Assembly (NCBI GenBank): GCA_016190695.1
Contig: JACPQC010000023.1
Span: forward strand, 1 to 64,000
Length of the DNA: 64,000 nt
From: Chloroflexota bacterium
GTDB taxonomy: Bacteria; Chloroflexota; Dehalococcoidia; Dehalococcoidales; RBG-16-60-22
Direction: 5' to 3'
Position numbers and translations under genes: made by a program. Position 1 is the first letter of the stretch; each line of letters opens with the position of its first letter. The notes under the pieces are model-generated. The model saw only the letters and a list, made by a program, of their open reading frames with translations. It had not been told where the DNA came from and made no database searches. Below, one piece after another: positions 53,341 to 54,462 of the stretch.

Positions 53341-53481
53341 CAGGGTGATGAAAAACTGTGGAAGATGTTTCGTCTCCCTTTCGTAAAGGGAGATAAGAGA
53401 GGGATTTTGAGATTACGAAATCCCCCTTCCGTCCCCCTTTTTCAAAGGGGGAAACTCTTCAAAGTCTTTTTCAGCATCCTG
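53341..53481 (+). repeat. Dispersed MITE-like repeat, copy D (short, most intact, 141 bp)
   Basis: CAGGGTGATGAAAAACTGTGGAAGATGTTTC ... GAAACTCTTCAAAGTCTTTTTCAGCATCCTG imperfect terminal inverted repeats; flanked by CTAT (53337-53340) and CTAT (53482-53485). Confidence 0.75.
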
Positions 53482-53579
53482 CTATAGCGGCCCGCATGAA
53501 ACATTTTACCGGCGGAAAGCCCAAGCGAATGAGACAAATGTCACAGAATAGGTATCAGGCGTTTCCTAAAATGATATGA

Positions 53580-53856
53580 CAAAAAGAAATAAGAAGCGGG
53601 GAGGTTGTTCTGAGGAATAGTAAATTACCAAGTCCACGAGATGGATATGAGGTTTTCCGGCGGGAAGCTGCCGAAGGTCCCCAAGTTTCTCGCAAAAGCA
53701 GGGGATATCTGTAAAGAACCCCATCTGGCGCTGGTAGTCAGAAGGGAGAAATAAGGGACGAAGCAAAGAGTAGACTTCATACGAAAAAGGTATGCGGTCC
53801 ACTCTCCGAAAACTTCCCGCCGGGCGTTATTTGGGGGGCCGTAAAAGCGGCCCCTA
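53580..53856 (+). ncRNA. Candidate structured non-coding RNA (family not recognised)
   Basis: Nested helices: CCGGCGGGAAG 53657-53667/CTTCCCGCCGG 53813-53823; GTCCC 53677-53681/GGGAC 53755-53759; TTTCTC 53686-53691/GAGAAA 53746-53751; AGAGTAGACTTCATAC 53767-53782/GTATGCGGTCCACTCT 53790-53805. Terminator-like hairpin follows. 5' end is approximate. Confidence 0.55.
53834..53856 (+). terminator. Terminator-like hairpin
   Basis: GGGGGCCG-TAAAAG-CGGCCCCT then AATTGTTATTT. Confidence 0.55.
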
Positions 53857-53857
53857 A

Positions 53858-53886
53858 TTGTTATTTCGGAGATATCCCTTTATAAT
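53858..53886 (+). promoter_or_regulatory. Promoter for the UPF0200-like kinase gene
   Basis: TTGTTA-N17-TATAAT; ATG 9 nt after the -10. Confidence 0.6.
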
Positions 53887-53895
53887 GTTGGCAGC

Positions 53896-54462
53896 ATGAA
53901 AGTAGTCGCCCTGGTCGGCATGCCCGGGTCAGGCAAGTCAGAGGTAGCCGGCTTTTTTGAAAGCGTTGGTTATATCAGGGTCCGCTTTGGCGACATCACC
54001 GACCTGGAAGTAAGGAAACGCGGCCTGGAACTCAATGAGGCCAACGAGCGGCGGGTCCGTGAGTTGCTCAGGCAGGAGCACGGCATGGCCGCCTATGCCC
54101 TGCTTAATCTCCCCAGGATCGATTCAGCCCGCGAACAGTCAAATGTGGTCGTTGACGGGCTTTACTCCTGGGAGGAGTATCTTCTCCTCAAGCAGTACTA
54201 TGACGCCGCGTTCATGGTCATCGCGGTGTGGTCTTCGCCCCGGACGCGGTACTCCCGCCTGGCCCGCCGCGCCCGCCGGCCACTGAACCCTGAGGAAGCG
54301 GTCAGCCGCGACCATGCCGAGATAGAGAGGGTCAACAAGGGCGGGCCTATCGCCATGGCCGATTACACCCTTCTCAATGAGTCTTCGCTGGAAGACCTGA
54401 AAAAGCAGGCGGAAAGGATCATCTCTGAATTAAATGGACAAGCCGACCAGACCCGGTATTGA
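53896..54462 (+). CDS. P-loop kinase-like protein (UPF0200/dephospho-CoA kinase-like, archaeal-type)
   Basis: 'VVALVGMPGSGKSEVAGFFESVGYIRVRFGDIT' Walker A; 'VVDGLYSWEEYLLLK'. Confidence 0.8.
   Translation: MKVVALVGMPGSGKSEVAGFFESVGYIRVRFGDITDLEVRKRGLELNEANERRVRELLRQEHGMAAYALLNLPRIDSAREQSNVVVDGLYSWEEYLLLKQYYDAAFMVIAVWSSPRTRYSRLARRARRPLNPEEAVSRDHAEIERVNKGGPIAMADYTLLNESSLEDLKKQAERIISELNGQADQTRY

Follow-up and report, generated by a model that had tools for sequence, protein, structure and literature searches.

A candidate free-standing structured RNA of Dehalococcoidia and the small open reading frame that precedes its core in most relatives

The DNA analysed here (the window) comprises positions 1 to 64,000 of contig JACPQC010000023.1 (GCA_016190695.1) from a Dehalococcoidia metagenome genome. 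Its interval 53580-53856 is flanked by marC on the minus strand (Pfam MarC) and, on the plus strand, by an AAA/dephospho-CoA-kinase-like gene. The initial annotation placed a structured RNA in this interval, and all of the helices that it listed were found, namely an 11-bp closing stem, GTCCC/GGGAC, TTTCTC/GAGAAA and a hairpin further downstream (Table 1). The terminator-like hairpin and the promoter of the kinase gene that were said to follow are also present. The start of the interval nearly coincides with a predicted transcription start at about 53579, which belongs to a promoter that was absent from that annotation. The kinase gene has a predicted start at about 53893 (−10 in the 53881-53896 region), some 3 nt before the ATG at 53896, which predicts a leaderless mRNA for this gene. 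An imperfect 35-nt inverted repeat (71%) of the CTCCCTTT/AAAGGGAG type was found at 53373-53452, between marC and the RNA gene; it looks like a dispersed intergenic repeat.

Table 1. Predicted features of the RNA locus in the window.
Feature	Position	Strand	Basis
Crp/Fnr-type operator TGAGAC-AAAT-GTCACA (predicted)	53530-53545	+	Common box and fixed spacing; centre −41.5 from predicted start
−10 element TAAAAT, 21 nt after GTCACA	53567-53572	+	Sequence; spacing peaks at 21-22 nt, both in homologues and at other sites in genomes
Predicted transcript, about 280 nt	53579-53860	+	Ends inferred from promoter and terminator
Closing stem, 11 bp perfect, 5′ arm	53657-53667	+	Fold; private to window
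Closing stem, 3′ arm	53813-53823	+	Fold; private to window
Conserved core of the RNA family	53672-53765	+	R2 model match, 74.2 bits; alignment A4, 59 sequences
P2 5′ strand GTCCC (partner 53755-53759)	53677-53681	+	Covariation
P2 3′ strand GGGAC	53755-53759	+	Covariation
Position pair next to P2: C·A in window, C-G or U-A in relatives	53682/53754	+	Covariation
P3 5′ strand TTTCTC (partner 53746-53751)	53686-53691	+	Covariation, all six pairs
P3 3′ strand GAGAAA	53746-53751	+	Covariation
P5, variable hairpin within three-way junction	53701-53722	+	Predicted fold; homologues differ in sequence and length
P4 hairpin (53724-53728 with 53738-53742)	53724-53742	+	Covariation; many U-G/G-U pairs fix the plus strand
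Near-invariant UA facing RAG (53683-53685), P2/P3 internal loop	53752-53753	+	U 95%, A 100%; A 98%, G 100%
Conserved GAAG after P2, mirroring GAAG 53673-53676 before P2	53760-53763	+	Conservation
Hairpin at relatives' terminator position, without U tract	53767-53805	+	Position
Intrinsic terminator of window RNA	53834-53855	+	Sequence
Promoter TTGTTA-N17-TATAAT of downstream kinase gene	53858-53886	+	Sequence

The interval folds strongly. The minimum free energy of the plus strand was −103.2 kcal/mol against −80.1 ± 4.9 kcal/mol for 200 dinucleotide shuffles (z = −4.71), and none of the 200 was as low; the shorter piece 53640-53835 gave z = −4.2. A perfect 11-bp inverted repeat, as found in the interval, arose in 3 of 500 shuffles. 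Folding of the minus strand is strong as well (z = −5.1), and therefore both the strand and the function had to be decided by comparison. The minus-strand ORF 53566-53802, whose expression as a conserved protein had been named as evidence against an RNA, is not conserved in the homologues (best tblastn E 0.11).

A blastn search with the interval showed a single copy in its own genome and no homologue in 100 related genomes, phages or plasmids, which indicates that a search on sequence alone is inadequate for this RNA family. A first covariance model, built from the single sequence 53655-53826 and its predicted structure, gave matches in 26 of 199 related genomes; these were mostly full-length and reached E 7e-9, the weakest being near chance. 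The second model was made from 22 core sequences aligned on sequence alone and was positive in 55 of 250 genomes, and a third found 50 positive genomes among 393, spread over the class Dehalococcoidia. Together, the second and third models detected the RNA in 77 different Dehalococcoidia genomes, with the weakest matches (E > 1e-4) regarded as uncertain. In a phylum-wide sample, 20 matches fell inside Dehalococcoidia and one, marginal (E 0.0097), outside. The core was missing or undetected in many relatives and is thus not universal in the class. Each single-contig genome of the Dehalococcoides/Dehalogenimonas type in which the RNA was found carries exactly one copy. Tandem duplicate copies were seen in one genus (L136, 248-404 and 628-788; L142, 1116-1254 and 1501-1632); every copy has a promoter, an ORF and a terminator of its own, and the peptides differ (..LYCKWKFPYYGSSLV.. 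versus ..LLCRWDEDSKGSSLV..).

The initial annotation could not match the interval to tmRNA, RNase P, SRP RNA or a riboswitch signature, and a covariance-model search of the window against Rfam returned no family for it. At the gathering threshold of Rfam 15, the window and 19 homologue loci gave tRNAs only, and at permissive thresholds (E<5 or E<1) there was nothing credible, only chance matches. In locus L137, the RNA has a selenocysteine tRNA gene (1996-2087) at a distance of a few hundred bases.

The proposed helices were examined for covariation. In the alignment based on sequence alone, 98.9% of the cells were paired and two-sided changes occurred at 13 of 17 pairs, while sliding the partner by 1-3 columns as a control reduced pairing to 46-57%. 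The alignment of 59 sequences, which was fitted to the model and is therefore biased towards the structure, gave 98.0% paired cells and two-sided changes at 16 of 17 pairs. A scripted tree-aware test (FastTree, Fitch reconstruction, changes redistributed over branches in proportion to branch change counts) counted 49 coincident changes where 7.8 ± 2.5 were expected, with a maximum of 20 in 5000 simulations. It should be noted that the homologues were first chosen with a model containing the window structure. Three features described below, found later and absent from this model, confirm the homology independently: the conserved ORF, the order of the genes and the geometry of the promoter.

The covarying elements are P2 and P3, nested as had been proposed, and a third hairpin, P4. 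The 11-bp closing stem, by contrast, is not conserved in the homologues: it is specific to the lineage of the window, and the conserved part of the RNA is the core that it encloses. One pair of P4 is U-G in 35 sequences; as this would be A·C on the opposite strand, the RNA is assigned to the plus strand. In the core, an asymmetric RAG/UA loop joins P2 to P3, which closes a junction bearing the variable hairpin and P4, with GAAG on both flanks. The near-invariant unpaired letters are the GAAG before P2, the RAG facing UA between P2 and P3 and the GAA(G) after P2. Their position in purine-rich loops and junctions suggests that a protein or ribonucleoprotein would bind there, rather than that they form an antisense seed.

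Gene order was then compared among the homologues, the neighbouring genes being named from visual inspection of their protein sequences. In the recurrent contexts, the gene 3′ of the RNA points towards it: a DUF62/SAM adenosyltransferase gene in 13 loci, a radical-SAM gene in 6 and secG in 6. A downstream gene on the same strand occurs only in small groups, including the window and the L236-L238 group. In a Dehalococcoides-type genome (G110), the stable locus reads pheA (minus), RNA (plus), DUF62 (minus), secG (minus), and this convergent order rules out a general 5′ leader. There, the core occupies 1,395,265-1,395,355 of the plus strand, with the ORF at about 1,395,159-1,395,239 and the terminator ending at about 1,395,416. 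Tracing the locus by means of the kinase gene was of no use: the kinase and deaminase genes stay neighbours in relatives, and the RNA and marC do not.

A terminator follows the core in 55 of 59 homologues. In most relatives, a terminator hairpin and its T tract stand where the window has the hairpin 53767-53805, which starts 2 bases after the core. The initial annotation had listed this hairpin among the helices of the fold; its reading is corrected here. Judging from its position, the window appears to have lost the T tract, and the second terminator (53834-53855) may have taken over. With its own promoter, its own terminator and an independent gene order, the RNA is free-standing at the sequence level. 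The initial view of an independent transcript rather than a 5′ leader is thus supported by these features together with the covarying helices, the convergent neighbours in most homologues and the occurrence of mostly one copy per genome.

In most relatives, the core has a putative protein-coding partner that is not visible from the window alone. A small ORF of about 25 codons lies upstream of the core in 39 of 59 loci by a strict pattern and in a few more by eye (about two thirds), and most of these ORFs have an AAGGAGG-type Shine-Dalgarno sequence that is suitably spaced from a start codon. The consensus is M..LLALLCRWFFPR.GSSLV.G... (also given as ..LLCRWFFPR.GSSLV..), and the stop is usually 19-45 nt before the core. 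In the ORF frame, the mean BLOSUM62 score was 2.12 versus 0.95 ± 0.26 for shuffled columns and there were no stops, while the other frames of the region had lower scores and contained stops. Among single-letter codon differences, 51% were synonymous versus 26% expected. A hairpin forms between the GSSLV codons (GCTCCTCGCTGGT) and a second strand, which stops 2-5 nt (usually 3) short of the core. A switch in which this pre-core strand would pair with P3 instead of the ORF hairpin was not supported (own pairing −8.1 versus −8.0 kcal/mol when swapped; 32% of swaps were as good). Many of the ORF-type homologues (e.g., L216, L217 and L205) have a short hairpin, such as GGAGGG...CCCTCC, between the −10 element and the Shine-Dalgarno sequence; it probably lies where the transcript begins.

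The ORF is absent from the window and from at least a dozen other members, the close relatives L231, L232 and L233 included. The members without the ORF keep the covarying core, the promoter and the terminator. As the core is kept where the ORF is gone, the RNA itself is argued to be functional.

Most members with the ORF have ordinary TTGAC.../TATAAT promoters and no Crp/Fnr-type box. Such a box, ACAAAAGTCACAGAC or near variants, was found upstream of the RNA in 13 homologue loci at a fixed distance from the −10 element. In the window, the predicted operator, named by its resemblance, has the geometry of a class II Crp/Fnr promoter relative to the start at about 53579, and a regulator gene is present in the genome. 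A search of eight genomes revealed further sites with the same 21-22-nt spacing to the −10, preceding ferredoxin, NrfD-like, FmdB-like and stress-protein genes (names by eye); the counts per genome did not always exceed those of a reversed control pattern, and so some single sites are not real. Four genomes carry the box in the space that separates a Crp/Fnr-family gene from a ferredoxin gene: G053 (C69:65741), G149 (C59:1880), G055 (C1:15731) and G020 (C100:15362). The genome of the window has an orthologous regulator (G000:C2, about 14.6-15.3 kb; 56% identity) followed by a ferredoxin gene. None of the Crp/Fnr-family regulator proteins that we looked at has an N-terminal Fe-S cysteine cluster. 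Based on these sites, the recurrent −41.5 operator is likely to mark a redox regulon in Dehalococcoidia.

In their manner, the closest known systems are dual-function RNAs and orphan structured RNAs, and the family is filed as a member of neither. Like the dual-function RNAs (Staphylococcus RNAIII, SgrS/SgrT and VcdRP of Vibrio cholerae, PMC8672173), it is predicted from sequence to be a free-standing transcript of a few hundred nucleotides that combines, in most relatives, an ORF in the 25-45 residue range with a structured part; however, the ORF has been lost in the window lineage and the sequences are unrelated. With orphan structured RNAs (OLE, raiA, GOLLD/ROOL and the smtA 'Soda Lake' RNA, PMC11109978), it shares a complex fold, strong covariation, many conserved letters and no consistent downstream gene. 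It differs from them in sequence and structure, in its smaller core, in its restriction to Dehalococcoidia and in the conserved small ORF of most members. FnrS-type sRNAs of enterics, which are activated by Fnr under anaerobic conditions, are likewise free-standing and resemble the window lineage in their Crp/Fnr-family promoter site (predicted here), but the regulator here has no Fnr-type Fe-S cysteines and the window RNA is far more structured.

We found no description of the family in the open literature, nor of any regulatory RNA of such a kind in Dehalococcoidia in the literature searched, apart from an rdhA riboswitch candidate. The Breaker-laboratory survey of 50 genomes names an rdhA motif, mostly from Dehalococcoides (PMC11109978), and a Dehalococcoides genome was therefore probably scanned; the supplement of that survey may hold the present family as an unnamed candidate.

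Several other explanations of the locus were considered. The one with the most in its favour, though we regard it as unlikely, is that the locus functions through the small protein, the structured core being its 3′ untranslated region and acting as a stability or translation-control element. The Shine-Dalgarno sequence with a conserved ORF in 39 of 59 loci (strict pattern) and the hairpin formed by the GSSLV codons beside the core speak for it, but the strongly covarying core, promoter and terminator persist in the window and in at least a dozen members without the ORF. A cis-acting leader of the downstream gene (riboswitch, T-box or peptide attenuator) appears very improbable. A leader-peptide-like ORF followed by hairpins and a terminator does resemble an attenuator, and in the window and the L236-L238 group the RNA is followed by a gene that runs in the same direction. 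Yet no consistent downstream gene was found: downstream genes differ and are convergent in nearly all recurrent contexts, which largely refutes this reading. In addition, a separate promoter for the window kinase gene follows the terminator, Rfam searches gave no riboswitch or T-box match, and the alternative pairing of the pre-core strand with P3 found no support.

The chance that the family is a diverged housekeeping RNA, most plausibly 6S RNA (RF00013), seems slighter still. It is mostly single copy, free-standing, vertically kept and of a length comparable with 6S RNA, and 6S RNA itself was above the cut-off in none of 61 relatives. Against this, the core combines a helix that has a 3x2 loop with a three-way junction, unlike the long hairpin with a central bubble of 6S RNA; no match in sequence or structure was seen even at E<5, the strong sequence motifs are unlike those of 6S RNA, and most members have the conserved ORF. 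Finally, both strands fold well and the 11-bp inverted repeat is perfect, as might be seen in a chance fold or a decayed mobile inverted repeat. This last idea is scarcely credible, as it is refuted by covariation in both alignments, with two-sided changes at 16 of 17 pairs, and by the tree-aware test; moreover, there is one copy in the genome of the window, gene order is stable in other families and the promoter geometry is fixed.

Taken together, the interval almost certainly represents a new family of free-standing structured RNAs confined to Dehalococcoidia. The reading that we consider the best overall, and hold to be reasonably probable, is a free-standing RNA of about 280 nt that would act in trans, would have been dual-function in its ancestral form and may be subject to redox-type control in the window lineage. 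The trans-acting role is argued from gene order and from the conservation of the core without the ORF. We suggest the following scheme. The RNA would act in trans via its folded core, and its ancestor would have provided both a peptide and an RNA function. In the window lineage, the ORF would have been lost and the RNA alone retained, and the RNA would have come under a Crp/Fnr-family activator bound at −41.5, giving control by redox or energy state. The combination of a core that acts in trans with control of the Crp/Fnr type in this lineage is given a little more credence than doubt. A bolder and rather doubtful proposal is that of a class-specific ribonucleoprotein RNA with a function unlike those of known bacterial RNAs, in which the peptide of about 25 residues from the same transcript works with the core or is regulated by it, and which one lineage has made purely non-coding and redox-controlled.

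This analysis adds a covariation-supported, probably free-standing RNA family to the class that includes the organohalide-respiring Dehalococcoides and Dehalogenimonas. The predicted mini-protein in the same transcript and the predicted redox-type input in one lineage would make its role open to direct testing in cultured D. mccartyi and in vitro, and the two functions are separated by a natural case in which the ORF was lost and the RNA kept.
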